This document shows positions 7,272-50,300 of a DNA stretch of 64,000 nt, in pieces. Origin of the DNA: Odiellus spinosus (lineage: Eukaryota; Arthropoda; Arachnida; Opiliones; Phalangiidae); contig OY987226.1 in NCBI GenBank assembly GCA_963920705.1, positions 23,445,636 to 23,509,635 on the forward strand, in the 5' to 3' direction. A model generated the notes under the pieces. That model saw nothing but the letters and a program-made list of their open reading frames with translations. It was not told the DNA's origin and searched no databases. Positions within the stretch are counted from its first letter, which is position 1; each line of letters starts with the position of its first letter. Both the position numbers and the translations under genes were made by a program.

Positions 7272-7933
7272 ATAAAAGATATTAGATTGGTTGGTAAGTT
7301 CTAGCTATTTGCTCAAATACAATATGTGGAGAGAGAAGAGTGAAAGCTAAGTACTCAAGTGCACAAGATATGAATATTTATTTTTAAAAATTAGTTTAAT
7401 GCTAATATCTCTTGACTTGACTGGTTTCAAATTTTTTTTAAATATTTTAACTTGAGTAATTATTTCCTTTGGATGTATCTTTAGGTTTCTTGACTTATGT
7501 AAAAAATTTGAATACTCAACTTTTACTAGCAACTAAGGATGAAACTATAACTAGGCTGACCCTTTCCAACTTTCTGGAACAACTGGTCTCCCCTTCAGGA
7601 CTGGAAAAAGCACACGTCCACTGGTCCAAAACCAGTTTATTAATTGCTTGGACCAGTTTTTTAATTGAAAAACTAGGGGTAACTGGTCCATTGGACCTGT
7701 TTAATAAAGTTTTTTGATGGAAATTGAGGTGGGACCTGTTTCAAAATTGAAGCTTTCTCCCAATTTCTACTCCTAGACTATTTACTTTGAAACACAATAA
7801 ACGTCAATTTAAAGCCCAAGACTAAGATTAAGGGCCTATCAAGTTCCCAGCCTTTGGTAGTGGTATTAAGTTACAATGAATATTGGCGTAAAAACTACGC
7901 GGCAGAGTGCGGCACGGCTTAACATTGCGTATT
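7272..7933. other. Intergenic, repeat remnants
   Basis: Contains several spaced CTGGTCC/GGACCAGT words (about 7590-7710), also seen near 2885-2905 and 15357-15390, suggesting a decayed repeat. No gene seen. Confidence 0.4.
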
Positions 7934-12214: not shown

Positions 12215-12415
12215 TCACTGCGTGTATAAACTGGTGGTGAAGACAATATCCCTTTTAACAGCTTGAATGGCATCTTCCATCTTCGCCTTCAATATATCAT
12301 TTCCAAATGTATGAGCGGCATTGCGGATATCCTTCATAATTTCTGTTAATCTTTGGATAGTTCTAACTATTATTCCTTCATCAACATCCGTCATGAGCGC
12401 TATTTCAGCAAAGGC
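12215..12415 (-). CDS. SKIV2L: SKIV2L exon 18 (last, with stop)
   Basis: Acceptor TTTCAG, then [17 protein letters not shown] to the ending [11 protein letters not shown] and TGA at 12215. Matches the family's invariant C-terminus. Confidence 0.96.
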   Translation of the reverse strand, partial: AFAEIALMTDVDEGIIVRTIQRLTEIMKDIRNAAHTFGNDILKAKMEDAIQAVKRDIVFTTSLYTQ

Positions 12416-15400: not shown

Positions 15401-15805
15401 AATCCTGCTATTGAGAAACCAACTAAAAATGGCTCGTGAACCAAATTAAAACTATTTCTTAAACACCATGTCTCATTTGCATCAGGAATTCTGGTTTTAT
15501 TTCTATTGTTAAGATTCTTCGAGCCTTATTTTGCAGCTTTGATAATTACCTGTGAATTAAAACGAATTTGATTCTTTCTAATAATATTTTTACAGTCCAA
15601 ATTGATAAAAAGTAACTCGTTTCCCGAGTCTAGTATTCTATCCTAGCTTTTAGAAGTATATGGTGATACTGGTATCATTAAAATCACATTTTTGGTTTTA
15701 AAACATTGAAATAGAATTCATCACTGAGAGCTTGAAAATGAGACTATATAATTACAGCAAAATCGTAGTTACAATATTTAGGATTAAAGTGAGCTTCAAG
15801 TTCTA

Positions 15806-15837
<32 letters not shown>

Positions 15838-24800: not shown

Positions 24801-27800
24801 TTTAATAATTTGATAATTTAATAATTTGATAATTTAATAATTTGATAATTTAATAATTTAATAATTTGATAATTTAATAATTTGATAATTTAATAATTTG
24901 ATAATTTAATAATTTGATAATTTAATAATTTGATAATTTAATAATTTGATAATTTAATAATTTGATAATTTAATAATTTGATAATTTAATAATTTGATAA
25001 TTTAATAATTTGATAATTTAATAATTTGATAATTTAATAATTTGATAATTTAATAATTTGATAATTTAATAATTTGATAATTTAATAATTTGATAATTTA
25101 ATAATTTGATAATTTAATAATTTGATAATTTAATAATTTGATAATTTAATAATTTGACAATTTAATAATTTGACAATTTAATAATTTGATAATTTAATAA
25201 TTTGATAATTTAATAATTTGATAATTTAATAATTTGATAATTTAATAATTTGATAATTTAATAATTTGATAATTTAATAATTTGATAATTTAATAATTTG
25301 ATAATTTAATAATTTGATAATTTAATAATTTGATAATTTAATAATTTGATAATTTAATAATTTGATAATTTGATAATTTAATAATTTGATAGTTAAATAA
25401 TTTAACAATCTAATAATTAAAATCAATGTGATTTAAAATGATTCTAATAAGGGGACCCTGCCCTACTTGTAGAGTCCTAAAAGTCAGTCCTGCCTTGCCC
25501 TCAATTAATAGTGTAATGTTTATAGAAATAAATTAAATTGAAATTGTTTAAATTGAAAATATTTTAAAGCTTTTTCATTTTGTATTTTAAAGCTTTTTCA
25601 TTTTGTATTTTAAAGCTTTTTCATTTTGTATTTTAAAGCTTTTTCATTTTGTATTTTAAAGCTTTATGGTGGTGGCAGGTAATTCTGTCCTCTTTTTAAA
25701 AAATCAAGAAAACTTTCCCAATGTTAACTGTGTCCAATTTAGGTGTATCTTTCTATAAAATGAACTTTTTGCGTGTATTTCAAGCTACTATGCTTTGATT
25801 GGTCTAAAAGATATGATACGTTTTTCAAAGTCAGTCGACAGGGTCAATTCCGTCCAGAAGAGTAATTCCGTCCGGCCTAAGTCTAATTCCGTCCACCCTA
25901 AGTCTAATTCCGTCCGGCCTAAGTCTAATTCCGTTCGGCCTAAGTCTAATTCCGTCCGGCCTAAGTCTAATTCCGTCCGGCCTAAGTCTAATTCCGTCCG
26001 GCCTAAGTCTAATTCCGTCCGGCCTAAGTCTAATTCCGTCCGGCCTAAGTCTAATTCCGTCCGGCCTAAGTCTAATTCCGACCGGCCTAAGTCTAATTCC
26101 GTCCGGCCTAAGTCTAATTCCGTCCGGCCTAAGTCTAATTCCGTCCGGCCTAAGTCTAATTCCGTCCGGCCTAAGTCTAATTCCGTTCGGCCTAAGTCTA
26201 ATTCCGTCCGGCCTAAGTCTAATTCCGTCCGGCCTAAGTCTAATTCCGTCCGGCCTAAGTCTAATTCCGTCCGGCCTAAGTCTAATTCCGTCCGGCCTAA
26301 GTCTAATTCCGTCCGGCCTAAGTCTAATTCCGTCCGGCCTAAGTCTAATTCCGTCCGGCCTAAGTCTAATTCCGTCCGGCCTAAGTCTAATTCCGTCCGG
26401 CCTAAGTCTAATTCCGTCCGGCCTAAGTCTAATTCCGTCCGGCCTAAGTCTAATTCCGACCGGCCTAAGTCTAATTCCGTCCGGCCTAAGTCTAATTCCG
26501 ACCAGTGGTGGGTAATACCCATCCACCCGCGGCTAATCGCTGGACAGTGGTGGGTAATGTCCATCCACCCGTAGATAATCACAGAATAATGAATACAATA
26601 TCCTCTGCACCCAAAATTTTCAACTATCTGCTCTATCTGGACAAAAACAACCATCGTAAAAGTTAAAAGCTACCAAAAGACATATTCCACATTTTTTACT
26701 ACGAAAACAAATAACAAATTTCAGCTTTAAATATTAAATTCATAATATTTTACTCAGTTTCAAACACCCACACAAGCATTTTTACTAAAGGTGTGCGAGA
26801 GCTTAGTCGAGCTTTGAGCCGAGCGCTCGGCTCGAAGCTAGATAAGAGAGTTCTTCAAAAACTCATAAGAGTTTGAGTCCAAAAATCTAGAGCTCATCAG
26901 GGTTCGAGCTCGATAAAAGCAGCGGGGAACCCTAAACAAAGACAGCCTTATCACAAAAAAAAAAAAAAAAAAAATCTTTAATTTCATCTTGTATTGCCTT
27001 CTTTAGCTCTTGAAAAAAAATCATAGGTGTAATGAAGCAACTAGGTTTACACCAAGTGAAAAATGAAAGTGGAAGAGACTTTTTTGAGGTGCCAGTTTTT
27101 CTTTAGTATTTCTATGTTAGTTTCCAGCTTGAATTTGCAGCGTGCACAAACCAGCTTGTCGATATTTCCATTAACGATTTCTATCAATAGCGTAGGTTTG
27201 TACCTACTGACGAAAGAAGGTGAAATCGACTTTGAAACTGTCAAAAATAAGCTTCTAAGTTCCGCCCAGGTATAAAATACTTGTTTTTCATTGGCTCTTT
27301 TGGTGTTTCTGGCCAGTTAAGCATGGTTTGTATATAAATATTTAACTTTTGGTTTTAGTTTGAAACGCTTTGTTGCCTGATCGTCTTTAGCTTGTATTTT
27401 ACTTTTGGTTTTAGTTTTAAATGCGTTGTCAACCAATTTTATGGTATCGGTCCCTGTATTGGCCTAATTATTTACAGGCAAATATATGGTGGTGCCGGGT
27501 AATTCCGTCCGCTTTTTATATAATCACCAAGAAAACTCTCCCAATGTTAACCGTGTCCAATTTAGGAATATCTCCTTATAAATTGAACTTTTGCGCGTAT
27601 TTTAAGCTAATTTTCTTTCCATAATTTTTATTGGTTTAAAAGATACGAGACATTTTTCAAAGTCAGTCGAGGCGGCCAATTCCGTCCAGAAGAGTGTAAT
27701 TCCGTCTGGCCTGAGTCTAATCGCCGGACAGAGGTGGGTAATACCCGTCCACCCGTAAATAGGAAGCGTCTAATTTCCGGATAACCTTCATTTATTAAAT

Positions 27801-29278
27801 TCATAATACTTTACTCAGTTTCAAAGGCAACTAAAACACCCACACAGTAAAAACCGTAATATGAACATTGAACCAGGTTTAATATTAAAAAATAAATGGA
27901 ACATCCCCAAAATATTTGTTTAACGCCCGCACTGATAAAAATTTAAAAAACAATGTCATTAAAATTAGTATATATTAACCTTGTAAAATATAGCTGCAAT
28001 CAGATTGAATAACGAACCACGGTTCGAAACTGTCTCCAATTTTTAAAACTTTTAAATAAACCAGTTTTATTTTTAATTCTTTCACGTGTTTTTTCTTCGC
28101 TAACCCAACTAATATTTAATTAATGTCCGTGATTGTTTTAAATCCTTATTTGCGGAGCCATAAAAAGCTTCATTCCCTTAAATTGGCATTAATTTAATCG
28201 GAGTAAATCGCTACTTTGTTAATTATAGTCGTATCTTAGCCGAACCTTTTCCTATGGCCTTGAAATATTTTTTTTTCTGACGGGGCGTTTATCAGTGTCT
28301 AAAATAAGTCCTTTTTCGTTTAATTTGAGCAACCAAAATTAAAGATTCACATTTTTGAACCAAAGTGGACGGAATTAGAATTGGATGGAATTACCCGTCA
28401 CCACCCTATATTATTTAATTTAAAGTATTGCTAAATTTATTTTTTTATTCTATAATGCTTGCAAAAAATGTTTTAAGCTCGCTAAACGCTTGAAATAACC
28501 AAATTTAAGTCTTAGTGAAATTATAACAAAGCATAAAAGCTTGATAAGTAAAATCAAAAGGGGATAGAAAGTAAAAAGGGCGCCTCTCCCTAAACTACAA
28601 GCCTTTATCTGCAGAGATCCTGAAATATGGAGAACATAATACTTACCCCCCTTCCCCCCTATATTTTGGCCAATCACGATGACTCTAACCTCACTACAAT
28701 ATCGATTTTTTTTTCCTCTCCCGTAAGTAGTTCTCCGATTGTAGCGAACCTATCGGCCGGAAAGATTAATATCATCTGCTAGTTTAAAAAGAAGCATTTT
28801 GCACAGGCTTAGTTAAACATGGAAGTCCCGACCTCGCGGATGTGGTTAGGAATTGTGATAATTGCGTGATTGATAAATCTGGTCTAAGGAAAAATATATT
28901 AAATCATATCGAGGCTAAAGTTACTTTGAAAAACTTAATTATTAATACGAATGGCCAGTATAATATACTTTAGAAAACATGAAGATGATGCGCCTGGTGG
29001 CTATTCTAGCTTTTTGCATTCGTGGTCCAAGTGGATTTACCATAAGGATATTTATTTTTGGGACAAAAATATTGTTGGAAATATGCATGTTGATTCACAA
29101 CCAATAAAGACACTGGAGTAATAACTAAATTATTTGTTTATTAAAACTATATTAAAATAAAGGTTACTCTATTAATCATTTAAACATAACTGTTGGGACT
29201 AGGCATATTAAAAGGATATAACTGCTAACTGCTCATGACTGCAACAACAAGAACACTCCTGGCTAACTGATGAGAGAG

Positions 29279-29328
<50 letters not shown>

Positions 29329-32300
29329 GTCTGCTATAATTAAGTCATGTGACTTCCTCTCTAGTTGACCTAATACTTCAACCCTTGACCTATGGTTATG
29401 TTAAAGTGCAAGTCTAAATATTTACAATTCTCTCCCTCTTTAACATAATTTATATACATATTTACTTTATACAATATTAAAGAAGTTAATCTGTCGTAAC
29501 TGGGGTTAATTTTAACATATTGCAAAAATTGAGAAAAATTAGTTTTGACAATGCTTTCGTAAAATTATCAGCTACATTTTGTTTTGATCTAACGTATTTT
29601 AGTTCGAATAACTTTTTCGCTAATTTTTCCCGAATAAAATGGTAACGTATGTCTATATGTTTAGACCGATTATTTTCGACGGGATTCTTCGTATAAAATA
29701 TTGCTGACTGATTATCACAATATGCGCGAGGAATGTTTATAGTCACAGCAAATTCCGCTGAAATTTCTTCGGTTATCGGGCTTAGCCACATTAATTCTTT
29801 TATGGCTTCCGTAAGGGCAATATACTCCGCTTCCATAGTAGAGAGTGACACGGACTTCTGTCTAAATGATCTCCATGAAAATGGACAGGCTCCAAAATAG
29901 CAGACATACCCACACATTGATTTTCGCGTGTCGCGGTCACTATCTGAATAGATAGTAATTCTGGAGTCAATATCTTTGTAATAGTGAAGTCCGTATGTCG
30001 CTGTCGATATTGTATATCTTGCCAATTGACATAACCTGTTCCAATGTATATAACCAGGATTCGCATTAAATTGCGACAACGTTGTTACTGCAAAAAGAAT
30101 GTCTGGCCTTGTTCGAAGCGCCACGAACATTAAAGCCCCGATTAAAGCTCGATATGGATAGTCTTTCATTCGTTTCTGGTCGTATTCATCAGACGGACAG
30201 TCATTTCTGGTCAAAATTTGTCCAGGGCTCAATGGTAGGCTTACTGGATCTTCTGCAGATATATTAAATTGATTTGATAGTTGTTTTACGTAACTTGTTT
30301 GATTTAACTTGATTCCTCCGCTTGCTAATTGCTTAAACTCCACTCCCAAGAATTTACTGATAGGCCCAAGACTTTTCATCTTGTAAATACTTGATAGGGT
30401 GTTGTAAACCTCCTTTAGGGCCTCATTGTCCTTTCCAATCACCGCCAAATCATCCACATAAACGAGTATGATTATTTTCATTGGAATAAAATACACGCAA
30501 TTCGTGCCAATTAGTTTCTTAAAACCAAGTTTCTTGAAGGTTTTATCCAACTCTAAATGCCATATTCTGCCGCTTTGAGGTAATCCATATAATGCCTTAA
30601 GTAGTTTTAAGCATTTCGTCGATGAGTTCTTCATTTCTAATCCAGGTATAGGTTTCATATAAACTGTATCGGGTAAGTCTCCATATAAATAGGCGATCTT
30701 TACATCGAGGTGGCAATGAACCCAACCCATAGTGACGACAAATAGTGCAATGAAGAATCGTATCAACGAAAAGTTAATAACGGGACAAAAGGTTTCGTCG
30801 TAATCAATTCCAGGTACCTGGTTGTACCCTTGCGCTACTAAACGAGCTTTATAGCGTATAATTTGATCTTGGCTATCCCTTTTGACGTTGTAAATCCAAC
30901 GGCACCCTATTATTTTGTCGTTTATAGGTCTTGATACTGTCTTTATGACTTCGCGTTCTGTCAAACTATTATATTCTTCCTTCATAGCCAACTGCCAATT
31001 ATGTTTCTGGGGTGATTTCATTGCTTCGTCATAGGTATTTGGAATGACCATTTCTACGCAATAAGCTTCAAAATATTCTTCATCGTCGGCTTCCTCCTCC
31101 TCTAGATCAGTAAGTTGATGTGATACTGCTAGTGAGGCAATCACCTTCTTTTTTGAAAATTGAAATGCATTAATATCATACGGTAATTGATTGGTCTTTA
31201 TATATTCATTCACAGCTTTTCTAGAGCGAAATCTTTTTCCTTGTGGATCACGATAATATATGTCAAAATCTCCGGCTGAAGCTCCACTTTGTCTGGTAAT
31301 AATTTCTTGCTTCCACCCATCAGGTAATTTTGGTACCAGGGTCTCAATAACGGGTTCCTGTTCCTCTCCCGGTTTGACATCTTCATTTTTCTTCAACCGA
31401 AGTTGATTTAAAACTTCATTCTGTTCTTCAACTGTATCTTCTATCTGTTCGTCAACAGTGTCTTCTATCTGATTTCGTATAGTTAAAGCTTCTGGGGTTT
31501 CTTCATTTGACCATCTAAATTGTACTTGGTTATCAGGTTGAACGTCTTTATTTACTGGGATTCTACCGATACGTTGTTCGTCAAAAGTGACATGTTTTGT
31601 TTCCTTCACTGTTCGTTCTTCAGGATACCATATGCGATAACCTATACTTTGGGTCGCGTAGCCCACAAGAATACCGATGTTGGCTCGTCGTTGAAATTTA
31701 TGTTTTCTCTGTGGCTTATGGATATGAGCGAAAGCAATACAGCCAATACGTCGCAGGTGTCTGCTACTTGGTTTTATACCGGTCCAGTACTCTAATGGTA
31801 CTTTGTCTTCGAGTTGACTGTGTTTTAGTCGATTTTTAATATAAGCTGCTGTGCGTACAAGTTCTCCCCATAAATTCACCGGTAATTTTGCTTCCTCCAT
31901 AAATGTCCTAGCCATGTCAACTAACGTACGATTCACCCTCTCGGCTACTCCATTCATTTGGGGTGAATAAACGTTTGTTCGTTCGTGTTTTATTCCATTC
32001 TTATTACAAAACTGTTCGAAATTCCTTGACCAAAACTCAAGACCATTGTGGGTGCGTATGGCCTTTATCCTTTTTCCTGTTTCGTATTCTACTCTGGATT
32101 TATACTGTTGAAAACAGCATAATACTTCGTCTCTTTTTGCCATAGTAAAAATGGTAATATGTCGACTACGATCATCTACGAATGTCAAGTAATAGTTCGC
32201 TCCTCCTAATGAGGTGACAGGGGCTGGTCCCCATACATCGGAGTGTATTAGCTGCAAAATATCTTGATGATATATTCTTATGCGCTTGTGAAATACTCTT

Positions 32301-35300
32301 ACTGGTTTTACACGCTAAGCAGGTGTTTAATTTTCCTTCGAGAGGCTCTAATCCACGTAGCATTTTATGATTATTCATATACTTTAAATCTGCCTCATTT
32401 ACATGTCCTAGACGTCTATGTAAAAGTTCCAATCCTGTACTTTCTGATTTACTCGTTTGATGCGTTTCGGCTGCACTGTTTTTTACTTCACTCTCATTCG
32501 ATTTAATATTCAAAATTCGTGTTTCGATCGTATACAGATTCCTGTTTAATCTTGCAATAAATTCAAGTGCACGGTTTGGAAAATATATTGAACATGACCG
32601 ATTTTAATTATAACTTTATATCCAGCTTCATCGATTAAACGCGCTGCAATTAAATTCTTCCCCATCTGTGGAGTGTGTAATACATTTTTTAGTGTAAAGC
32701 GTTTCTTCCTCCCTTGATTAAGTACTTCAAATTCGATGTCGCCAACTCCCTCGGCTCTTGAATTCCCTACTCCAAGAGTTATTTCTTTCTGCAAAGGGTT
32801 ATATGTCTTAAACCAATTTCGCTGATTACATAAGTGATGCGTAGATGCTGAATCAATAACCCATTCATTTGCCGCTGTTGCTATATAACTTGCTGATGCG
32901 AAGAAGGCCCCACTTATGTCGTCGCTCTGTTTACTCTGCGGTGGGCCCCTTTTAGCTGACCGACAGTCTACGCTCCTATGTCCCTTCCGTCCACAATTGA
33001 AACATTCACCTTGGAATGTTTTAGCTGAATAACCTTGTCTAGGATACGTACGCCTTCGGTCCTGCAAAGGTTTTCCTACTGGTTTTTTCGCTACTGGTCG
33101 CAACACCGTTGCAAAGGCATCTACTGTATCGTACTGCTTCTCCTTAATAGCTTGCCGTCAAAAATTCTGCCGTTAATTTTTGCATGATGGTTTCAGATGT
33201 GAACTCTTGATCTGATAGATGATATAAATGTTGCGTTAAAGCCTCGTACGTATCAGGTAGAGACCCAATTAATTGATAGGATACATCTTTATCCTGAACT
33301 GTTTCACCAGCTTCGGTTAAATTTCTACGCGCGCATAATACTCTTCCGATGAACGCTGACATTGTCTCTCCCTGTTTATATTCTAGTGTATAGAATTGTT
33401 TACGCAATGTGGCAATTCGTGCCCTGGACTTGGGTTCAAATACATCTTTTAACTTTTCCCATACAACATTTGCTGTTGTTAAATCTTCTATAAGGCCTCT
33501 GATGTCTTGAATCAGAGTCATAGCGAGAATTGAAAAAGCCCTTGAGGCTCTTGCCTGATATTTCTGTTTGACCTCCACTGTAGCTGTTGAATCTGGTGCA
33601 ACTTCTGTGTCCATGACTATTTCCCATAGGCATCTTTCTCTCAGAATCATCTCTATCTCAAACCTCCAGTTACGATAATTTGTTGAATCAAGTTTGACAA
33701 TTTGTCCGACTGAAAACGCGTTCCCGCCATCTGCCATTGTCGCTAAGCCTGTGTCGACTTGTTCACTAAAAGAGGCCGAGGCTTAAACCACGCTCTGCTA
33801 CCACATGTTGGCAATATGCATGTTGATTCACAACCAATAAAGACACTGGAGTAATAACTAAATTATTTGTTTATTAAAACTATATTAAAATAAAGGTTAC
33901 TCTATTAATCATTTAAACATAACTGTTGGGACTAGGCATATTAAAAGGATATAACTGCTAACTGCTCATGACTGCAACAACAAGAACACTCCTGGCTAAC
34001 TGAAGAGAGGGAGTAACAAAAAAAAAAAAAAAAAAAAATTTTCGTCTGCTATAATTAAGTCATGTGACTTCCTCTCTAGTTGACCTAATACTTCAACCCT
34101 TGACCTATGGTTATGTTAAAGTGCAAGTCTAAATATTTACAAATATTACAATTATAGTTAATGTTATTAAGATTATTATATTTATTTCTTTAAAACTGCA
34201 GATTATTAAAATATATTCCCTAGAGAAACTACTTCTTGACGCTGTACTTCTTGGTTGGCATTTGAACTATTTTTCGGCCTCTTCGCTCATATTTTAGTGC
34301 TACGGCACAAAAAGATCTTACGCCAATAAGGGGGGCGGGGAATTCAGAGGGGAGATCAGTAGTTCTCCATATTACAGGTTCTAGACTCAAAGCCCAGTAG
34401 CGCCCTTTTTACTTTCTATCCCCTTTTGGTAAAATCCAGGGCTTGAGCTCGACTCCTGGCTCGACAAGGAAAAATTTTCTGGCCTAAAGCTTGACTACCA
34501 GCTCGATCAGAAAAATTTTCAGGGCCTGCATGAGCTTGGCTCGAAGCTTGACAAGGAAAACTTTCAATGGCTCGAACTCGGCTCGAAGCCTGAAATTTAG
34601 GGCTCGCACACCTCTAATTTTTACACAGTCATATTATGTTCTAAGCCTTTTCTTAAAGTATTGTTACGAAACACTACCGTCCTCTAAACTGTATTCGCGT
34701 TAAAAATATTTCCAGCCCTGAAAGACTGCGGAAAAAATGCGGGAAAATTGTCAATCGTCAATGATTTTCAAGCTCGCAAATTCGTGTTTTAATAAGGTGT
34801 TTTGAAGTTAACTTTGTAATAGTCTGACCCCACCCCATTCGGTCGTCTGCCTAACATATTGTTCTTACTATTTTATGTCAGGTCTTATATTTGTATATTT
34901 TTTCTTTCCACGCGTATTATTTTTTTAGCGGGGGGATAAAACCAACCCCCCCGCCCAACGAAGGGGGGCTGATTTCTCTCTCCTTCGGATGGGATGGTTA
35001 GATTTTTTTCTTCAGTAAAATTTGATTCTGTAGCGCGTCGGGTTACAACTGATTGTCATTAATTATGGATAATTTGGTAATTAAATCTTTTTAATTTTGT
35101 TGATCATATTGTTGTCTTTATTTATAAATTTCAGGTGAATTTTAATTCTTCGGCACAAAACGATCCTTAGTGTTAACAGACCCCAATAGGCCCTACATTC
35201 TGAATATTTCCTCAGTCCGTTACAACTTTAAACTAGAGGTTGTTTCCAGCGGACGGAATTGGCCTCTGTCAGTAGTTTTTTCTAATATTCGATAAATAAT

Positions 35301-38300
35301 TAAATACGGTGTTAAGATGAAACCGGAGACGAGTATTTTGTAGCTAAAGCTCTGGGTTTTCGAGTGGTATTGTGTTCTTGTCTGTACAATTTCCGTGATT
35401 GTTTTTAAACCTTATTTCTGGAGCTATAAAAAGCTTCATTCCCTTAAATTGGCATTAATTTAATGGGAGAAAATTGCTATTTGGTTAATTATAGACATAT
35501 CTTAGCCGAACCTTGTCCTACGGCCTTGAAATATATATTTTTTTTCTTACAGGCCTTTATCAGTGTCTAAAATAAGTACTTTTTCGTTGAATTTGAGCAA
35601 CCCAAATTAAAGATTCACATTTCTAAACCAAAGTGGACAGAATTAGCTTTAAACGGAATTACCCGCAACCACCCTGCCTATTGCATTTTAAAGCTTTAAT
35701 TATTGTATTTTAAAGATTTTCAAATTATATTTTAAATTATATACTAAATTTCCTCGTGATTGACCTACAAAAACACTGCACATTTTTTAGTCCTTTCCTA
35801 CACAGAGCAAGCCCTTACGGAAAAAAGTTAGTCTGATCTGAAGAGGTCTTCAAGAACACTACAAATGTCTTGGGGAAGTCTTTTAGACTTTCCCAAGACT
35901 TTTGGACATAATGAAAGACTTCCCCAAGACCTCTTAAGACTACCTTTTTTTGGTAAGGGAGTCTTAGAACGTAACCAATTTGAGCTTTACCAAAAGTATT
36001 TTTACAAGGATGGAATCTGTTTACTTTAATTTTTTGCATAAAATCAGAATCTCTCGCGATAGACCCCTTAGTCATAAAAGGTCTTGTGGAAGTCTTCCGG
36101 GTGTCTTATGTAGTCTTAAGAGGTCTTGTGCAAGTCTTTCGGGTGTCTTATGTAGTCTTAAGAGGTCTTGTGGAAGTCTTTCATTATAGCTATGGTTACA
36201 TTAGCATTTCTTAATCGATTTGAAAAGGCAAAATCAAATCGATATTCAAATCGCCAGGAATCGTTTTAAGAGTCATTTCTTCACACATTATCTTTATAAA
36301 TCTATTTATTGTAGCTTTATCAATCAGCTGTTGAAATCGAATCGGTATGAAACTGGTTCCCGAAGCAGTTTCGATAAACCGAATCAAAATGATTAGAGAA
36401 AAGACGGCTTCCTGTTCACACGACTCTACCGAAACGTTTTGAGACGGTTTAAATAGATTCCAAGGCCTAGTATGAACGCAGCTAGTGTCAAGAAGCTTTT
36501 CAGTAAGGGACTTTGGAAAGCTCACAACTGACCATTTGATGACCCTGTTTAAAAGTTTTTCCTGTATTATTTTAAAGATTCTTTCCTATTACATTTTAAA
36601 GATTTTCCTATTACATTCTAAAGATTTTTCTATTACATTTTATAGTTTCTTATACGTTTTATAGTTTCCTATTACATTTTATAGTTTCCTATTGCATTTT
36701 ATAGATTTCCTATTATCAAGATAAGAAATATGGCTCCACAATCATTCTTATGAGAGGTATGAATTCCTGATTAAATATCATAGAGAAAAGCGCCCCCTTA
36801 CATAATCTTGAAAATCTAAGATTACATATACAATGACTGAAGGGTATTATTCAAGATGACATTGATTTAATTTGTACATAATATCTAAGGAATCAGAATT
36901 AAAATACTTCATTTCAGTTAGTAGACTTATCCCTTTAAAAATTTGGCCATGTGTTAACAGGGTTAGCTAAAGGTTAAAGTGAGTAAGGCCTTCAGCGGCG
37001 AAATCCTGGGGTTGTGGAAGCTTTTTATAGGGATAGAAAACCTGCAAGGCCTTCTATACAGGTGAACTTGATGATTTTAGCGAGGATTTCCATAACACAC
37101 CACTAACCAACGCTAAAATTTGCAGGGATTACAGACATTTGAACCTTATAGAAGGGTGTAAACAAACTGCAGAGAGGTTCCATTCTCTTAAGTGGTGTTG
37201 CTACACATCCCTTGAGAATTTAAAGTGTAACCCACCTCCTCTCTCTAAGGTATTTGACGCTGGTTATTGTTCAACCCTAAAATTATAGAGATCTTCTGAA
37301 AAGAAAGCATTGCTGGCTCTATTCTCTTTTAAGGATATGCAATTGAGCAAGAAAAGAAAGAGTTTTCAGGGGGCAAATTATTATTTGAGATTAGATTTCT
37401 TTTATGCAAGTATTGAATTTTTTATTGGGAGAAATTGGTTTATCATATTCAACAGAGTTTGGGTCATATATCATTTCTCTTGATCAGTAGGTGCAAGACT
37501 TAAAGGAATTGTATAAAGAAATGGAATTAGGGAAAACAAGCTTACTTGTGGTCTAGAAATTGATTACTGGAGTCAACTATTAAGAACTTTTCATTTTGAG
37601 TCTTTCCAATGCTGCCAGTGTAGAGATAATGTTCCAGTGGGACTGGCCTCTTCAATGTACTTATGACATAGATTTTTTTATTTTTGGTTCTCCTGTAAGA
37701 AAAAAAAAGGAATTTTAGGTCAAAAAATTCTGTATTTTTGGTCTGCATAGATAATGTAAAGAATGCTAAGGTTTTACTAGCAAGGAAAAAAAGTAAAACG
37801 TCAAAATTCTAGGAGTTTTAGGAAAAAATTTAAAATATAGGAATTGTGGTCACCCTATATAAGTTAACACATTTTTTAACCAATAGGGTGTAAAGACCCA
37901 ATTGAGAGAGACTAATGTTCTTAAGAAAAGAGATTCCTTGAAGAAATAGACAGTTGCTATTCAATTATATTATAGAAACTCCTCGTGTTATCGGCTATTG
38001 TTGTGTGAACTTACCCAACCCAATCGGCCAGGTCCATAGTATTTGATACAGTTGCACTAAGCATAACTAGTTTAACTTGTTCCGGTAGCATAATAAGTAC
38101 TTCTTCCCATACAACTCCTCGCTGGATGGATATATAAAAGATAAAATTAGACAAGGATCACAACTATAGTTCATACTACTTTGAAATACATTTTATTATT
38201 TACACTTCAATTATAGTATGGGAAAGAGCCCAAAAATTGGAAAAACAAAGAATAGTTAGAGACAAAAGCCAATTTCTGTAAGAATATTTATGTATACACT

Positions 38301-41300
38301 ATGTTTTGACATCCAGAATCATATACTCCTTGGTTTATATCTGCGGTCTGGTAACTCTGCACTAGTTTCTGACTAGTCGTCTGTTAGTTGACCCGTGACC
38401 CGTGACCCAATATTTATGATGTAACCCCACTTCTCATCGGGCTGGCATTGCGTTTAGTTCAATGATATGTTTACTTTATATTAATAAATTAATCAACAAG
38501 TTATAGGATTAACTTTTATTCGCTTTTACACCTCTACACAACAATTTCAAAGGGAATTTGTTTGATAAACAGCAAATTTAAGGGTAACGCCCCCCCCCCC
38601 CCCACCAAACTGCTGCCATCTTGTATTTTTGTGATTTTTTGGATTTTACAGCAAAATGGTTAGAGATAGTTGCAAACCAATCATTATTATTCATAATTAA
38701 TGTATCCACCATTTACTAGAGAAATTGGCAATGACTAATTTTTTTCTGGACACTAAAGTTAGTCACAACTACCTGATTTTCTTCACTTGCCTCGTTACGT
38801 AACCTGCATGGTATGTCTATTCGCAAACATCTTCCACACAACAAAAATTTGCTTTGCTCTTTCGCTTATTACTAAGCCTGGTCCTCGAAGAGATTGCAAA
38901 AGATCGTTGCAATTTTGCTTAAATGTGAAGCTGTTATAATTTAATCCTCCCCGACATATTTATCCCAAAGCTGGTTCCATTTTGCTTTTCATTCCTTGAC
39001 TAAGACGAAAATATTAATGGATTATATATTTTATCCATTCCAAAATTCTGATCCAGGCTGAGTCTTTGTATCTACTATTATTGTTTATCAGGAGGTTAAA
39101 ATTCCACAGCTCCTGAAAACTTCTCACTTCATGAATTAATCATTTTTCGTTAATAACTAATCTATCAGCAACTCATTTAAATGTCTCTTTGACAGAGATT
39201 GATTCCAGCAGAGCTAGATTTGATATAATACGCAAAAAATATGTGTAGATGCTTAGGTGTTGTGACGGTCACACAAAAAAAAAAAAAAAAAAAAAATTCT
39301 TATGTCTAGCCCCAAAAATTTACCCTAGAAAAAGAACCCCGATTATCTCCCCCTGGTGATGACCGCCACAATTATAAAGTTTTGAGAGATCCTTCTAAAA
39401 GGAGATAGAAGAGGTCAGTTCTCATATATTCTCTGAACAGAGAACCACCTTGAGTTTAATATAGAAAAAGCTTCTTCATTTAAAAATACTTTAAGCCAAG
39501 TATACGGTGGATTTCTGTAAATACAACTAGAAAAATTAAATCTTTCAAAGAAAGAATTTGCGAATCTTTTATTGGAAATGTCTAGAGAACATAGGTGGGC
39601 GAAAGACGTTTCGTCTAGCGAGACCTCCTCGTCGGAAGAAGATAATCAGGTATTTATAACAATTTAAAATTGTAATAGCGTAAAAACAAAAACAGCGAAG
39701 ATAGGGGTTGAACCACTAACTGGGTTAAATAGCTGTAACCATCCTCTCATCCTGATAAAGAGAGATCCCATACGGGAGACGGTTACAGAATTGGTGCCGT
39801 GACCATACCCCTTTCCCTTCGCCATTTTTCGCCTACCCCGTCCGCCATCTTGGCCTCCCCGACCTCGGCTTCGTTTTTTTTTCTTTCGCCGTTCGCCCTT
39901 TTTGGCCCGTCTTTTTTAGTGGGGGTGGTGATAGGCGTTATCTCGCCTATTCTTTTGCAGAATTCCTTAATTTTATTAATGGAAATTTTCCACGAATTTA
40001 TCCTTTTGATCTATTACTTTTGATTTTGATATTTATAATTATAAAACCTTTTTAACAATACTTAATTAGATGAATTAAACACACAATTTTGAGAAATATT
40101 TTCCTATTAATACCAGGTTATTCAAACACTTTTATTTAATAAACGAAAATATTTTTTGGCCTAACACTGACGTCACCTAACCGGAATTTAGCTTTTATCA
40201 CCCCACAAGATAAAAATCCTTCCTTGACATCTGAGTCTGAGACTAGTATTAATTGGGAGAGACTACAGCCAAACGATTCTGAAGAACAATTGGTAGAGAT
40301 ATCCCCCCCTGTAACTACTTACAATATACAAAATATTATACGCCCATCAAGGTTACAATTAAATAAGGGAAATTCTATTATGGCGACGTCTTCTCCACCT
40401 ACTACAATTGTACCAACTACACCTACACCTATATCCCCTCATACACCTGTAATAAGTCCTCCACTATCCCCACATGCACCGGTAGTAAGTCCACCATTAA
40501 TTGGAGTGGGGATAACAAGTCCTCAAAGTTCAGTAGCAAATATATCGGCTATAAGTTCCCCACCAAGGATTCATAGACGTTTAATAAGGGTTAAATCATT
40601 TCCAAATTTAAAAAGTCCTACAGGGAGTATTGGTTCTCCAATTTTTCGAACTCCCATGATGGGATTACCTTTTGGTAGCACAGTAGGGAACATCCAATTG
40701 GGTTTAAGTATGTCTATACCTAGTGCCTCTAGGCATGACAACCCTATGGGCTCGCTACAAGCGATATTAACTACAACCACTACAACTACTATGGCCACTG
40801 GAATTGTGACCACACCTTCAATTCATCCATCCGGTATATCACTTCTTCCTACGACGACTCAAGGCGCATTTGGAATTTCGGGTCCTCAAGTTCTCCAACC
40901 ACCATCAATTACACAACCAATTAATCCAGCTGGAAGCTATGGACAATTTCCTTCAACTAGTACAACACTTGGACAGCCTCAAGGTCAACTTCCACCTCAG
41001 GCTCAGTACCAAATTCCAAGCGTCACACAGCCACAATATCCACCAATAACAACTCAATCAACGTATCCTCTTGGATTTCATCCTCAAGCATCGAGTACTT
41101 TTTACCAAGGACCACCTACATCTACTCCTGCACAAGCTTATCAAGGATGGTATCAGTCACAAGTACCCTTACCTCAACAACAAGTATATTCAGCCCAGCC
41201 TCAACCGGGATGGTTCCCAACTCAAGCTCACTGTCAACAGGGTCCTCCTTCACAATTTCCTTCAGCTCCTCAACCAACAGGAATACCAGGAATATCTCCT

Positions 41301-44300
41301 ATACAAGGAACACCAGGACAAGGTCAAGGTCAAGGACAATTATCTCCACCTTTATCTCCTCGATCAACATCGATGCTGAGGACCATGACTAAAGTCATGA
41401 AGGAGAATAAAGGCCGAAGCTTAAAGGAACCACCTGCCCGATTAGTTTTCTATGGGACGCACCAAGAGAAGGTTTCCGAATTCTTACGAGATCTAGATGA
41501 ATTCGCAAAGTTCAACGAACTAACAGAAAATCAAAAGATGGGACTCCTGCCTATGGTATTAAAGGCTCAAGCTCAAACATGGTACAGAGGATTACCTCAA
41601 CCAATGGGATGGAGTGAATTTGAAGGGAGAATAAAACGTCACTATCGAGCTGAACAAAAAGAAGCTTTAGCTAAAGCTGAACTAAATCTCAGATTTCAAG
41701 GTCCAAACGAAACTATAGAAGAATTTTTCAGTCACTATGCACGAGTTAACCAAAGTTTGACCCCTCCGATCCCAGACAAAGAATTGCAAGATATGATAAG
41801 AAGAAATATTCGTCCAGAATTTAGAGGTTTTCTAACTTTCATGAGTGCCGCTACCGTCGGAGATCTCCATGATCATTGTCTCAAGCTAGAAGAAAGTCTT
41901 GGATTAACGAGAACTCTTAGTTATGGAACAACGATACCTCAACACGGAACATATCCAGCTCAGTGGACATCTCAAGGTCAACTGATTGCTCATGTCACTC
42001 AACCATCAGTTCAACAGTTTCCATATCAACAATATCCAAAGACTCTTCAATATTCAACGGCGACGATTCAACCTACTCCAGCGATACCGAATATAATTAC
42101 TCCAACTATACCAAGCTCGACTACAGCTATATATCTACCCAAAGGAACATCTCAAATACAATATCCTGTTACAGGAAACCTTCAATCAAGTTCACTTCAT
42201 GCAGGATCACCAGCACAGATATATACTCCTACTGGAAATCCACAACTACCAACACCTGGAACATCATGGCTAAACTATCAACAACAACAACCTACGACTG
42301 TATTATCGAATACATTTCAGCAAGCTCGACCTACCACTCCTGGTCCCTTTGAACAAGTACCTCCATATCAAACAGGATATATGATTCAACCACAACAAGT
42401 TCCTCAAACATATCCAGTAGTAGAACAAAGGACAAGACAAACTCAGTTGAACACCGCTGGAAGAAGAACCGGACAATCAAATCTTCAAGGAGCTCGAAGA
42501 ATTCCATCGAGGTCACCAAGAATAATTACTCCTTCATCTACTCGACCTCTAGGACAATCATATCCGACGAGACCTACAGTTTTACAACCAAATATTACTT
42601 GTTTCACCTGCAACGGAAGAGGTCATCTGTCGAGAGACTGTCCATCAGTCAGAGTACCAAGAACGACTCGTCCGGAAAACATCGGAGCGGGAGGGCAAAT
42701 GGGCCAACGCTCTCCCGCGCCAAATCAATAGCCCAACCAAAGGTCCGTCGTACTGTTTCAAGGCCCCAAACCTATCAATTATCAGCAATACGACGAAGAC
42801 GGGGCTTGCAAAGAAGAAACCCTCATATTATTACAACAATCTTCGAACATGGAAAACTAAATACCCGGATAGACAATGGAGCAGAAGTCTCCATGATTAG
42901 TTCTGATCAGTGGATGAAAATACGACAGTATAGAGGCGAATCGTATATCCCTTATGAGAAGATATCCGAATGCATCGTCATGGGTGTTGGAAGATATACC
43001 TTCACTAAAGGATCCATTCTTTTGGATTTTGAAATTGTTTTCGAGAATCAAAGGAACCGGATGTTCACCCATGAATTCCATATCGTACCGTCTCTATTAT
43101 GCGACGCCATTCTTGGACAGGATTTCTTAGAAGATTGGGGAATGAAAATCGATTTTGAAAATTTGACTTGTTCAATTCAAGGAGAAACTCTCAAGTTCGT
43201 TGGATGGTACAAGGATAAAGGACCCCCTTCCCCAATCATGGTAAAGAATGTAACTGAAGCTGTCGACGCAACAGAGCTACCCGAACAGAAGAAGAAGGAA
43301 CTAAAGGATCTTTTGCTAAACTTTCCGGATCTCTTCAGTGACAAATTAGGACATACAAGTCTAGTCGTACACGAAATTCACACAGGAGATGCCAAACCGA
43401 TAAATAAAAGAGCTTATAGAGTCAGCGATGCCAAGAAACGGATTATCGAAGAACATATCTCTGAAATGCTAAAGGACGGCATCATAAGACCATCTACCTC
43501 TCCATGGGCTTCTCCTATAGTCATTATTCAACAAGATGATGGATCCGGAACCGGAAAAACCAAAACAAGGTTTTGTGTTGACCTCCGAGAAGTAAACTCA
43601 GTTACGATAAAAGATCCTTACCCGATTCCTCGTATAGAAGAAACCCTAAACAAAATGGGAAAACCAAAATATGTTACGACTCTGGATCTAAAAAGCGGAT
43701 ATTGGCAAGTCGAGTTGGCTCCTGAAGCAAAACCAAAGACTGCCTTCATTACCCATGCCGGTAAATACGAGTTCAACGTATTAGCCTTTGGTCTTTGTAA
43801 CGCTCCGAGTACGTTCCAGCGTCTAATGGATGAAATCTTTCGAGACAGCGAACCTTTTTCCATCGTGGTCTACCTCGACGATATCCTAATCGCGTCCGAA
43901 ACATGGGAAGAGCATCTAAACGCTCTGGAATACGTTATGAATCGCCTAAAGAATGCCGGATTAACTCTCCAACTAAAGAAATGTCGTTTTGCCAAGCCTG
44001 AAGCCATTGTCCTAGGACATATCATCAATGAAAATGGGATATTTATCGACCCATCGAAGATAAAAGCCATTCAAGAATTTCCAAGGCCGAAAACTCTAAA
44101 ACAAGTACAAAGATTCTTAGGCATGGCCGGTTGGCACCATCGCTTTATTCCAAATTTCTCTGAGATAGTAGCTCCAATCAACCATCTAAAGAAGAAAAAC
44201 GTTCAATTTCGTTGGGGAGAAGATCAAGATAAAGCCTTCCAACAGATAAAAGACGCCATTGCCTCAGCTCCGTCATTAGCTCCATACAAAGCGGATATAC

Positions 44301-47300
44301 CTTGTATCCTAACAACCGACGCTTCTGGTACAGGATTAGGAGCTATGCTGTCTCAAGTACAAGATAGTGTTGAAGTACCAATAGCATACGCTAGTCGAAG
44401 ATTATCCAAAGCTGAATCCAACTACAGTAACACCGAACGAGAATGTCTAGCAATCTATTGGGCTGTTGGATATTTTAGACCATATTTGGAAACGCTTCCG
44501 TTTACCGTAATTACGGACCACAAGGCTTTACAGTGGCTATTCACCCTTAAAGAACCACATGCAAGATTGGTGAAATGGGCTATGTACCTACAGACATTCG
44601 ATTTTAAAATCCTACATAAGAAAGGAGTAGAAAATGTCGTAGCAGACGCCTTGTCTAGAGCCCCTTTGGGATTGTTGGTAATGCCACTTCATGGATTATC
44701 CACTTCTGAAGAGTCTCTACGAATCCCAGACAACGACGAAAATAGAGAAAATCCAAGGGAGAATGTTTTACCTCCTTTTCCACATGCGAATTTCCATATC
44801 TTCAATAGAAATGAAATCATTACTGCACAGCAAGAAGATCCAAGCATGGAAGAAATTATCGAACGATTGTCAAGAGAAAATGCTCCCGAAGATAGAATGT
44901 ACTTACGACGAAATAATCTCGTATACGGAAAAGAAACAGGCAGACATCCTGAACGAATATATCTTCCGACAAGACTCCGACCGGAGATACTACGCTTACT
45001 ACATGATCACCCTCTTGCTGGTCACCGTGGAAGAGATAAAACGATAGCAAAAATAGAAGCCAGATTCTGGTGGCCCACCTTACGAGCTGACGTCACGAAA
45101 TATGTCAAAGAATGTCTATTGTGTCAGCAGTATAAGATAAGGAACACTCGTACTCCCGGACTCATGAAGTCGACCGAACCAACGGCTCCCTGGGATAAAA
45201 TAGGCGTGGACATAATGGGTCCATTCCCAATTAGTAGAAAGGGATACCGATACTTGATCGTATTCGTCGATTACATGACCAAATACGTCGAACTGGTTCC
45301 TATAGTCGCCATGACAGCTGACGCATGCGCAAGAGCTCTGAAGAAGGTCATCTGTCGATGGGGCGCTCCCAAGCAAATACTAAGTGATCGTGGAACTCAA
45401 TTCGTCTCAACTCTATGGAAAGATACTTGCAAGTTATTCCGGATAACTCCTATATACACTACGCCGTATCATCCACAATCGGATTTGACTGAAAGAGTCA
45501 ATCGAGTCCTAGGAGAAACGATTTCTATTTACGTCGGAAATAATCATCGAACTTGGGACGAAACGTTGAATTCATTAGCTTTCGCTATAAACTCCACTCC
45601 GCACGATACTACAAGACGCTCACCATTTTATCTAACTATGGGACGAGAGCCCAGGCTTCCATGGGATTTCGATATCGGAATGCCTGTAGAGGAGTTCGAA
45701 GATCGATCAGAAACTTTAAGAACTCTTCGAGAGCAATGGGAATTAACTAAAGGATTTTCCCGACTAGCCCAAGCTAAACAAAAGAAGTATTATGACCGAA
45801 AACGAGCGGATCTTGAATTTGAACCAGGAATGCTAGTCTGGAAAATGACTCATCCACTGTCAAGAGCCAATATCGGAAGGATGGCAAAGTTATGTCCGAA
45901 ATGGTCAGGTCCTTATAGGATAATCGAAAAACGAAATCCTTTGGTATATGTTTTGGAAGACGCTATTACTGGAAAAAATATTGGACCAATGAACATTGCC
46001 CAATTAAAATTGTATCATGCGAAAGATATTCAAATCGAGGAAATAGAACAGCCTTTACCTGCTGCTCCGGAACCGGAAGTACTTCCACCCGAAGAAAACT
46101 TACCAAGAGAGAATGAAGTAGAACCTCCGCAAATATCTGACAGAGACAAAGACAGAAGATCCTCGGGATCGCAAGTCCGAGTACTTACAAAAGAAAGACA
46201 AATATCTCAAGAAAAGAAGAAGGCTCCTGCGACTGATTCAAGCGAACGTATGCGTCGACATCTAAGGAAAAAGAGACCTCGACGATACATATCTTCTTCG
46301 TCATCAGAAGATGAAATACCATCACCTGTTATTAGGAAAGAAGCAAAAACTCCTCCAAGGATTCCCCAACCAAGGAGCCCAAACGTACTCCTTAGGCGAC
46401 CTCAAGAAAGTTCAGAATCAGGAACTGACAGTGACGATGATTCAGGAGGAAAACGAATAGCTAAATTGAAGAAGCAACAAGAGACTGTACCAAAACAAAT
46501 TGGTTTACCATCAACAGGACTAGCGCTAGCAAAGGACATACCTTTACCGAAGACGAGCACGGATACACCAACAAAGCCAACTGCTGAATCAAGCAAGAAA
46601 ACTTTACGAAAAACCCCGGATCTTAGCTCTAGCGAAATTTCCTCAGGAAGAAAATGGGAAGAAGAATACCCTATCCTATACACAGGTTCTTCGACAAGTG
46701 AAGACCTCAGAAAGGAAGATATACGACTCAAGGAGAAACAATCTTTACTAGAGTCACCTCGAAAGGAGTCCAATAAAGATCTAGACAGAGTAGAAACTCA
46801 AAAACGGATAAGAGAATCATCTTCAATGAACTCTGAAAAACAAAAGGATAAACGTTTAAAATCGAGTCGTGTCACTCATACTTTAAGTCCGAGTCGAAGC
46901 TCCTCAGAACAGGAATCAACATCGCTCAGTACGAGAAAGGAAAAAGAAAAATCAAAGGAAAGTGACACGAAACCTAAAACGAAGAAACGTGAACGAGAAG
47001 TTTCGTCTCCTCCAGAATTGGAAGCCGCTATACAAAGAGGGCGAGAGATTCTAAAAAGGAAACAACAAAGAAAAGAAATTCCTTATTTAAGAAGAATACG
47101 AGAAAGTATGCCTAGTACAAGCAGAATTGGTCACGTTTCAAGCGAAGGACATCTGGAAACAGGAGAGCCAGAATTATTACCTGATATGGAGACACGCTTA
47201 GAATTACCCTTTAGAAAAGGATGGAGTCGAGAAGTGTGCTACAGGCACACAACACACCCCGGAAAACCAATTATGGATATATACTATTATCCTCCAGTAG

Positions 47301-50300
47301 CTCCTAGGAAACGATTGCATTCTCCGAACGAAGTTCAAGCTTATTTAAGAAAACATAATATAGAAAATGTTTCAGTAGACAATTTCGATTTTAAACGCCA
47401 TCATATAGCTTGTTCTCCATGGGAAAAAATTACAACAGCTCGGGAGAGATCACAACTCCCTACCGCTTGTTAAACTTATCCCTATCCTATTAAGGAGACA
47501 ACATTGACGGTTTCTTTTCTTTTTAGATGGAAGTAACTATCTATAACGATGCGAATAACGCGCAGACAGGATGGTCTACCAATACAGGAAGGGGGAAAGC
47601 TATTCAAACAAGTAAACCAGATGTGGGACTCAACAAGAGTAGAGGTATTCTATTGGACTGGTATAAAGAATTTACCCAGGAAGAAACCAAAAAGAGCTCC
47701 CTCAGCGAAATGAAGGAAGCACCGGAAGCCCAACCTCAAACAACTCAGGATCAATTCGAAGATGCAATCGAATCCGAACAAGGAGCTTACGCTATGGCCC
47801 CCGCTTTTTCTCCGCCGAAATTGAATCCTGTGTCAAAGGAAATAGACCTAAATCCAGAACAAAAAAGGGATTTATCCACCCGTCCAAAAATAAGGGACTA
47901 CAATTACAACTCAACGATTCCAGACTCCGGAGAAGAAATAAATACTCTTATTCATTCAAGCGATGTACGCTTACGAACTCAACGATTAGAAGTAACTTAT
48001 TCGATCTTCAATGAAAGTGAGACCTCCAAGATGGAATTAGAAGGGCGGTCCGAAATAAGAAAAATCATGATGGGACCTACCCCGCAATCACGGGATACTT
48101 ACTTGTCTATAGCGACACCTGAGAACTCACTTCCGGAACGACGTCTAGCTCTAAGACGAAACGTAAGCCTTCCAACTATAAGTTCTTCCCAAGAGAGACA
48201 TCGAAATCCGGAAACAGTCCCTCTCTCACCACGAGAAAACCAATTTAAGAGTGGACAAGGTACACCCTCTACAAGCGCTTATGGACCCCTACCTGTTCCG
48301 TCCCACAGATTTCTTATATTATCGAATGAGGCCAAAAGAAACCCTCCGCCCATGCAGTCAACGGCTCCCATCGGTCGACAATTTTTCCCTGTTGTCTGGC
48401 CAGGGATAACGAGAAAAGAAGAGGTGCAATGGTACCCTATCGACGAAAAAGGATGGCCGATAGTAAAAACCCCCGGGAAAAACGACCCATGTGTAGCATG
48501 CGGAGTATTCGGACAACATTTTGCAAAATGGTGCCCACATCGATACCAACTGCGACAACGAATTGGAGAGCTAAAATCGAAGAGGGCGGAAAAAATGAAA
48601 AGAACCAAAAACCTCCCGAAGAACCTACCTCGAGGTCCAGAAGACCCCCCAACTGGAGGAAGCTCGTCCTGTCCCATTTAAACGTCAACAAAACTCTAAT
48701 TTTGTTCTCTATATATTTTGTTTTTGGGGCATAAATGCTCCTATAATTTGTTAACTTTTTTTTTGAGGGGGAGGTTGTGACGGTCACACAAAAAAAAAAA
48801 AAAAAAAAAAAAAAAATTCTTATGTCTAGCCCCAAAAATTTACCCTAGAAAAAGAACCCCGATTATCTCCCCCTGGTGATGACCGCCACAATTATAAAGT
48901 TTTGAGAGATCCTTCTAAAAGGAGATAGAAGAGGTCAGTTCTCATATATTCTCTGAACAGAGAACCACCTTGAGTTTAATATAGAAAAAGCTTCTTCATT
49001 TAAAAATACTTTAAGCCAAGTATACGGTGGATTTCTGTAAATACAACTAGAAAAATTAAATCTTTCAAAGAAAGAATTTGCGAATCTTTTATTGGAAATG
49101 TCTAGAGAACATAGGTGGGCGAAAGACGTTTCGTCTAGCGAGACCTCCTCGTCGGAAGAAGATAATCAGGTATTTATAACAATTTAAAATTGTAATAGCG
49201 TAAAAACAAAAACAGCGAAGATAAGGGTTGAACCACTAACTGGGTTAAATAGCTGTAACCATCCTCTCATCCTGATAAAGAGAGATCCCATACGGGAGAC
49301 GGTTACAGTGTGAATTTATGTTGCATGGAAGAGTTTTGCGAAAGGCGTACCATGCGCCCTAGAAGGGGGTTCTGGACTATAACGCGCACTCACTAAAGCC
49401 AGAAAGAAATTAATTCTTTATTTATGAATTCTTTATTTATGAATTCCTACCACGAGTAAAATAAATAACTTTCAGGACTCACCTCTGGATCATTTATGTA
49501 ATGGACTTCATCAAATATTACCCATTCAAGATCTCTGATTGTTTCTGCGCTTCTATACAGCATTGACCTGTAAAATGTATATTTATTTCTAGTTACACAT
49601 GTAAGATCTATAACACACGCAGTAAAATTTTTCAAATTTGATCAGCCTGTTTAAGTTAATAATACTTTGCAAGGATAAGTACTTTGTAGTTAAAGACTTT
49701 TATCAAGTTAAGAGAATGTGACAAAAATGAATGTGAAAGAGATAAAACATAGCAAATGCAATTTGACTCAGACAAAATTAGAGACAATTAAGCAACTCTC
49801 AGCGGAAATGATATCTATCCATGGTGCTAATGAAGTAGAAAACAGTTGACTATAGGGAGACAGCAAAGAGCCAAGGGGAAAAGAAAACCTGACATCATGG
49901 AACTCCCTTAATGGGGGAGCGCTTGTAAGGGTGAATACTGTAACTCCCTCACCAAGGGGATGACACAGGCGAGAGATAGAAATCTCTTACATATTAATGT
50001 CACCCTTCCTGACTCCCTTTTTTAGGGGGGTGGAAGTTCCCCAAAAATGGCGGCCATCTAGGAATGTTTAGTTATTTACAATTTTCGGAAAAACCAATAG
50101 ATTTAGCCACATGAAAGTAAAGCAATTTGATTCTACGTGTTATTACTTATTTAATAAAACAAACCACATCAAAATATTCCAATTAGATCAAATGTTACGC
50201 AGAAAAAAAACAAAAAAAAAAAAACACATCGTTAATTTCGTATTTTTCCAGAGTTAAGTTGGTGTTTCCCTGGAATTGTTTCAAAAACGCTAGCTTCCCT

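Follow-up and report, generated by a model that had tools for sequence, protein, structure and literature searches.

Methyl-CpG-binding domains beside the integrase in two unrelated LTR retrotransposon superfamilies of the arachnid Odiellus spinosus

Why do two unrelated long terminal repeat (LTR) retrotransposons, inserted in introns of one gene, each carry a methyl-CpG-binding domain (MBD) close to the integrase? The question is raised by a 64,000-nucleotide stretch of the Odiellus spinosus genome (assembly GCA_963920705.1, contig OY987226.1, positions 23,445,636 to 23,509,635; here called the window), in which the gene SKIV2L (SKIC2) harbours a Ty1/copia and a Ty3/gypsy element. The original prediction held that both elements had convergently captured readers of DNA methylation, which may guide them into methylated gene bodies. 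We find, with moderate confidence, that copia and gypsy acquired their modules separately and that selection has kept them, for what we predict to be integrase-linked reading of 5-methylcytosine (5mC).

Both domains exceed the curated cut-off of the Pfam MBD family (PF01429; 21 bits), with 58.2 bits for copia and 41.0 bits for gypsy. The copia MBD lies between the SH3 region of the integrase and the reverse transcriptase (RT), in an element assigned to Ty1/copia by its LTRs, the order of integrase ahead of RVT_2, and a copia gag. The gypsy element has LTRs and matches in the order RVT_1, RNase H, H2C2, integrase core and MBD; RT and RNase H thus precede H2C2/integrase, as in Ty3/gypsy, and the tree of relatives agrees. 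Its MBD forms the end of Pol, some 400 residues past the GPY/F module, behind a linker of approximately 385 amino acids rich in Ser, Glu, Lys and Arg. No chromodomain match was found in the gypsy open reading frame (ORF) at E ≤ 1, so the element lacks the C-terminal chromodomain that defines chromoviruses. SKIV2L exon pieces lie on either side of both insertions, at 37545–37691 and 22632–22943 around copia, which shares the orientation of the gene, and at 49483–49566 and 38014–38121 around gypsy, which is antisense to it. The intronic location of both elements, their MBDs and the proximity of these to the integrase therefore all stand as predicted.

The two elements are a sample of a genome-wide phenomenon. 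A search of the 443 Mb assembly (286 contigs) with PF01429 gave 415 candidates, of which 150 were scored, and all 150 exceeded the Pfam cut-off. We read the DNA around matches in eight search loci, 20 stretches of 10 kb, 20 of 2.4 kb and four of 0.6 kb; these were aimed at 52 of the 150 matches, with two more in the window, and taken together the sequence contains 57 domain copies. Of the 55 that lie elsewhere than in the window, 29 belong to copia, 18 to gypsy and eight have no element assignment. Integrase lies upstream and RT downstream of the MBD in 27 of the 29 copia copies. In the 18 gypsy copies the MBD begins 178–1165 bases past GPY/F, which is present in all of them, a position that follows partly by construction, as assignment to gypsy relied on finding integrase or GPY/F upstream. 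The unassigned copies comprise a host BAZ2-type exon resembling BAZ2B (L007), another that we take to be a host SETDB1-like exon (L053), one that resembles the gypsy family of the window, in which the integrase region was not found (L047), a truncated copy (L010) and four too short to place (L055–L058). In two of the 10 kb stretches (L022 and L027), one copia and one gypsy element occur together, both bearing an MBD.

The two modules resemble different host domains. Compared by sequence with the PDB, the copia module matched MBD2 (1.6e-12), MeCP2 and MBD4, and the first structure matches of its AlphaFold model (predicted local distance difference test, pLDDT, 65.5) were MeCP2, MBD3, MBD2 and MBD4. 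In the structure alignments listed, its identity to MBD2, MeCP2 and MBD4 is 33–44%; it shares their R-D-Y-R contacts (discussed below), but sits in a retrotransposon polyprotein. The gypsy module matched BAZ2B first (3e-5) and BAZ2A next, with no match to MBD2, MeCP2 or MBD4 in the PDB at E ≤ 10. Smith-Waterman z-scores of the copia module were 26.1 and 23.5 against MBD2/MeCP2 and 7.9 against the gypsy module, for which the best partner was BAZ2B (18.2). In a tree of 49 rows and 74 columns, from which 14 of 63 near-duplicate or truncated rows had been dropped beforehand, gypsy modules side with BAZ2 and the host SETDB1-like domain, and copia modules with MBD2, MeCP2 and MBD4. The branch dividing the two sides is weak (76/86), and neither the 19 gypsy modules nor the copia modules form a single clade in the best topology, although a single gypsy clade is not rejected (approximately unbiased test, p-AU 0.33). 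Exchange of one module between copia and gypsy was considered and rejected on the z-scores and the tree. Because the copia module fits MBD2, the gypsy module fits BAZ2B and their mutual z-score is only 7.9, a recent exchange between the two window elements is very unlikely, and the prediction of two separate captures is upheld by these comparisons.

A relative from another assembly suggests that the gypsy capture is old. Using the gypsy RT-integrase region as query, we examined the best 120 of 3470 protein matches. One of them, P0030, carries an MBD (PF01429, 27.1 bits) at the same place as the window element and is its best single-stretch match, with 46% identity over 98% of the query region; an MBD profile found no further MBD in the other 119 of these best 120. 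Of the 121 rows for a tree, 28 with coverage below 85% were dropped, leaving 93, and a further 55 of these were removed to give a 38-row tree, in which P0030 and the window element form a pair (support 100/99). The 93-row tree flagged two long branches meeting at this pair. When either partner is removed, the other joins an 18-row set with full support in the Shimodaira–Hasegawa-like approximate likelihood ratio test (SH-aLRT). Similarity between the two proteins yields no convincing alignment in the linker, resumes exactly at the MBD and runs to the C-terminus of P0030, and the score of this tail alignment was equalled in 45 of 20,000 shuffles. This points to a single old MBD capture in a gypsy lineage, kept while the linker diverged. 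Protein searches with the MBD only returned none among 26 and none among 31 candidates, and are evidently insensitive for so short a domain, since P0030 exists and was missed. Scans of viral contigs with four queries detected no relative. The scan of bacterial and archaeal genome contigs yielded six gypsy-like loci (L001–L006; 31–41% identical), in which no MBD was found; these loci, in bacterial assemblies, are probably eukaryotic contamination.

The residues expected to contact methylated DNA are largely conserved. We take the contacts R-D-Y-R to correspond to MeCP2 R111, D121, Y123 and R133, which touch methyl-CpG. All four are kept in 43 of the 57 copies, including the window copia; the 14 exceptions comprise three copies of one copia family, two truncated copies, two host-like exons and seven others, the window gypsy among them. 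A published account (PMC10783490) states that canonical MBDs conserve one contact Arg, and that this residue is critical in MBD1. Pooled over the domain, the ratio of the proportions of non-synonymous and synonymous differences (pN/pS) is 0.21 in the gypsy family of the window (66 pairs), and 0.23 in a second gypsy set of three pairs; three copia sets give 0.33, 0.43 and 0.58. These values signal purifying selection in several families. With R-D-Y-R persisting in most copies and pooled pN/pS low, the MBD is thus maintained by selection, and in most cases it has the contacts that a 5mC reader should have. Three copia copies (L023, L024 and L025; open-frame length 1450 residues each) have an identical MBD reading R-D-I-R, and the Ile in place of the contact Tyr may have changed its specificity.

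Do the modules then steer insertion, and if so where? The predicted methylation of the host gene body agrees with its CpG content: codon junctions of SKIV2L hold 25 CpG against a mean of 42.4 in synonymous shuffles, none of 1000 shuffles being as low, and TpG/CpA is in excess alongside. SKIV2L therefore looks germline-methylated, judged by this depletion footprint. Three element ORFs tested in the same way lacked depletion at their codon junctions. If the modules guided insertion into genes that are constitutively expressed and have methylated bodies, with intronic copies being tolerated, this might explain why both copies lie in introns of a conserved gene with CpG-depleted exons, with gypsy only 182 bp from an exon piece. 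However, SKIV2L fills at least 68% of the window on its located exon pieces, and 75% if ORFs up to 60469 are included, so that a pair of insertions would be expected to fall in introns anyway; 15% of intronic positions lie no farther from an exon piece than gypsy does. CpG density at both insertions, measured from element ends placed a few bases short of the final borders, falls within the 5–95% background range for all three flank sizes, the copia 500-bp flanks (3.1 CpG per 100) coming near the upper bound of 3.4.

Insertions elsewhere in the genome also speak against gene-body guidance. MBD matches form megabase clusters: of the 114 situated on 14 contigs of known length, 49 have their nearest neighbour no more than 50 kb away, compared with a mean of 10.7 and a maximum of 23 in 500 uniform draws, all 26 on one contig (C2) lie in the last approximately 12 of 34.5 Mb, and all 26 on another (C1) in the first 20 of 35.4 Mb. 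As a group, 20 further MBD-copia loci, which are high-scoring copies, show no CpG depletion in their outer flanks. Observed/expected CpG there is 0.97, with 12 of 20 at 1.0 or above, compared with 0.68 in 28 non-LTR pieces of the window, none of which reaches 1.0. Two of these 20 loci overlap by approximately 900 bases and five (L019, L021, L022, L027 and L033) hold a second LTR-element piece, so that their flanks are partly other elements. MBD elements thus look as though they accumulate in CpG-dense, repeat-rich DNA; the predicted guidance into gene bodies is not supported, and we regard it as improbable.

The mechanism that we favour accommodates this distribution. Each module would travel with the integrase, the copia MBD between integrase and RT and the gypsy MBD at the Pol C-terminus past GPY/F, and would bind methylated CpG in host chromatin. 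Such binding could make integration more likely, or the integration complex more persistent, in DNA that is methylated, CpG-dense and largely repeat-rich, by a tethering analogous to that of the chromodomains of chromoviruses, which act via histone marks. The conserved contacts would be expected under any 5mC-dependent role, including one that begins once integration is complete or that is directed at the DNA of the element itself, where the module would bind methylated element copies and hinder or exploit silencing, or concentrate Pol in methylated chromatin, with no part in site choice. A position right after the integrase in both superfamilies is, however, a trait of targeting modules such as chromodomains, and we think a purely post-integration role unlikely.

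Several observations weigh against integrase-linked 5mC reading by two selected modules. The window gypsy MBD itself reads R-D-Y-H, the second contact Arg having become His; all 11 close relatives compared with it have R-D-Y-R. No selection signal comes from two copia sets of near-identical copies (in one, pN/pS is 2.0 with three synonymous differences pooled; the other has no synonymous difference), and the clustering of MBD matches may reflect a general clustering of LTR elements, those without an MBD included. Finally, the model of the window gypsy module is poor (pLDDT 48.1), with no MBD among the 50 structure matches listed, and its nearest solved relatives are the BAZ2A and BAZ2B TAM domains, which according to the published account (PMC10783490) do not tell methylated from unmethylated DNA.

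The most dismissive interpretation, that the modules are functionless passengers, could draw on the disrupted state of the window copia and on the contact residue missing from the window gypsy. It is hardly credible given the pN/pS of the gypsy family over its 66 pairs and the conservation of contacts across many diverged families. A TAM-like, methylation-blind binder of DNA or RNA derived from BAZ2, which would leave methylation to be read by the copia module only, is consistent with the first PDB match, the z-score of 18.2, the BAZ2/SETDB1 side of the tree and the reported indifference of BAZ2 TAM domains to 5mC (PMC10783490). In a profile search with the window gypsy and P0030 modules combined, BAZ2B again came first (33.0 bits), with MBD1 (30.5), MeCP2 (29.8) and MBD4 (29.0) within about 4 bits of it. 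Yet the P0030 module alone is closest to MBD4, and most gypsy copies read have R-D-Y-R, unlike BAZ2, which lacks the D and Y contacts that gypsy modules possess; the contacts are R-E-C-R in the host BAZ2-like exon and L-Q-F-R in the SETDB1-like one. A purely BAZ2-like gypsy module was weakened as a candidate once R-D-Y-R relatives appeared, and we consider a methylation-blind module decidedly improbable.

If the gypsy module did come from BAZ2, the D and Y contacts must have re-evolved, which the data allow and do not show. A more elaborate scenario, which we offer tentatively and regard as rather doubtful, is that the gypsy lineage took up a methylation-blind TAM domain of BAZ2 type, regained methyl-CpG contacts and converged with the canonical MBD of copia on integrase-linked 5mC reading, so that a whole set of copia and gypsy families within the same genome now shares the methylated niche.

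The original prediction also presented the pair of elements as a candidate for an undescribed system; the gypsy half does appear new. For copia, de Mendoza, Pflueger and Lister reportedly described in 2019 an arthropod retrotransposon family, CopiaMBD, that had captured an active MBD. In a centipede this family is said to favour CpG-dense repeats that are methylated, and in a spider the methylated bodies of genes. The copia elements here resemble the reported family in joining an MBD to a Ty1/copia Pol, in the proposal of methylation-guided integration and in layout, the 27 copies noted above having the order integrase, MBD, RT; the copia half and the link between methylation and gene bodies thus have a precedent. 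The difference is that many diverged copia families and a second superfamily carry an MBD in this genome. No report of an MBD in gypsy elements was found in literature coverage that left out most subscription journals. Chromoviruses, themselves Ty3/gypsy, likewise place a chromatin-reading module past the GPY/F region of the integrase, in their case a chromodomain where the window gypsy has an MBD. Retrotransposons with captured DNA methyltransferases, reportedly described by de Mendoza in 2018, similarly appropriated methylation machinery, there a writer and here a putative reader.

If the modules do read 5mC, transposons have repeatedly put an epigenetic mark of the host to use as an address label, and two unrelated superfamilies would be reading it side by side in a single genome. 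With the gypsy example, what has been published for copia would also hold in a superfamily where chromodomain targeting is known. Comparing MBD-bearing with MBD-less elements, and copia with gypsy, within one methylome would provide a natural test of whether such readers steer integration.

Coordinates of the features described are collected in table 1.

Table 1. Features of the window, numbered from its first nucleotide.
Feature	Position	Strand	Basis or remark
SKIV2L (SKIC2) gene	12224..55506	-	13 exon pieces located in span
Ty1/copia element with MBD	29073..34141	-	LTR pair, borders, domains
copia 3' LTR	29073..29426	-	354 bases
copia ORF	29486..32314	-	order: integrase, SH3, MBD, RVT_2 (RT)
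copia MBD, contacts R-D-Y-R	31142..31333	-	Pfam E 6.5e-16
copia zinc knuckle and Pol beta-barrel piece	32546..33157	-	domain matches
copia gag piece, Retrotran_gag_2	33144..33782	-	E 4.1e-29; frame differs from rest
copia 5' LTR	33806..34141	-	336 bases; primer site just inside
Ty3/gypsy element with MBD	39261..49307	+	LTR pair, borders, domains
gypsy 5' LTR	39261..39787	+	primer site just inside
gypsy gag ORF, 862 aa, zinc knuckle	40143..42731	+	ORF list, domain match
gypsy pol ORF, 1706 aa	42353..47473	+	protease, RT, RNase H, integrase, GPY/F, linker, MBD
gypsy MBD, contacts R-D-Y-H	47192..47398	+	Pfam E 1.5e-10
gypsy third ORF, 384 aa	47527..48681	+	ORF list
gypsy 3' LTR	48776..49307	+	compared with 5' LTR (see text)

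The gypsy element is young, since its LTRs differ by one substitution apart from the length of an A-run and it is bordered by a 4-bp target duplication (GTGT). Its primer site, TGGTGCCGTGAC, presumably matches the 3' end of His tRNA. The third ORF had no match in Pfam or NCBIfam; a zinc-knuckle-like Cys/His pattern is visible close to its C-terminal end.

The copia LTRs differ by four substitutions, apart from the length of a T-run, and the target duplication is 5 bp (AATAT on the plus strand). The primer site, TGGTAGCAGAG, presumably matches the 3' end of initiator-Met tRNA; no tRNA was found within the window. This copy is disrupted, with gag out of frame and ten stops in one 87-codon stretch of the main-ORF frame, and its integrase has His at a position where copia integrases have a catalytic Asp. 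An unoccupied counterpart of the insertion site is found at approximately 8190–8250, within another copy of the same host repeat. The element is nested in this older repeat: direct repeats at 28122–28443 and 35388–35711 flank it (89% and 82% alike in two blocks), and a copia-free copy of part of the repeat lies at 7932–8787 on the other strand.

The identity of SKIV2L is supported by the one exon piece compared with the PDB, whose best match was Superkiller complex protein 2 (7e-31). Upstream of the most 5' exon piece located, repeats occupy 55870–56836, 57073–57590 and 60928–62842, comprising a tandem duplication (offset 322 bp, 98% alike), another direct repeat and an inverted repeat approximately 570 bases long (95%). 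A minisatellite at 25759–26669 is open in four frames, on both strands, and encodes 7-residue repeats such as SVRPKSN.

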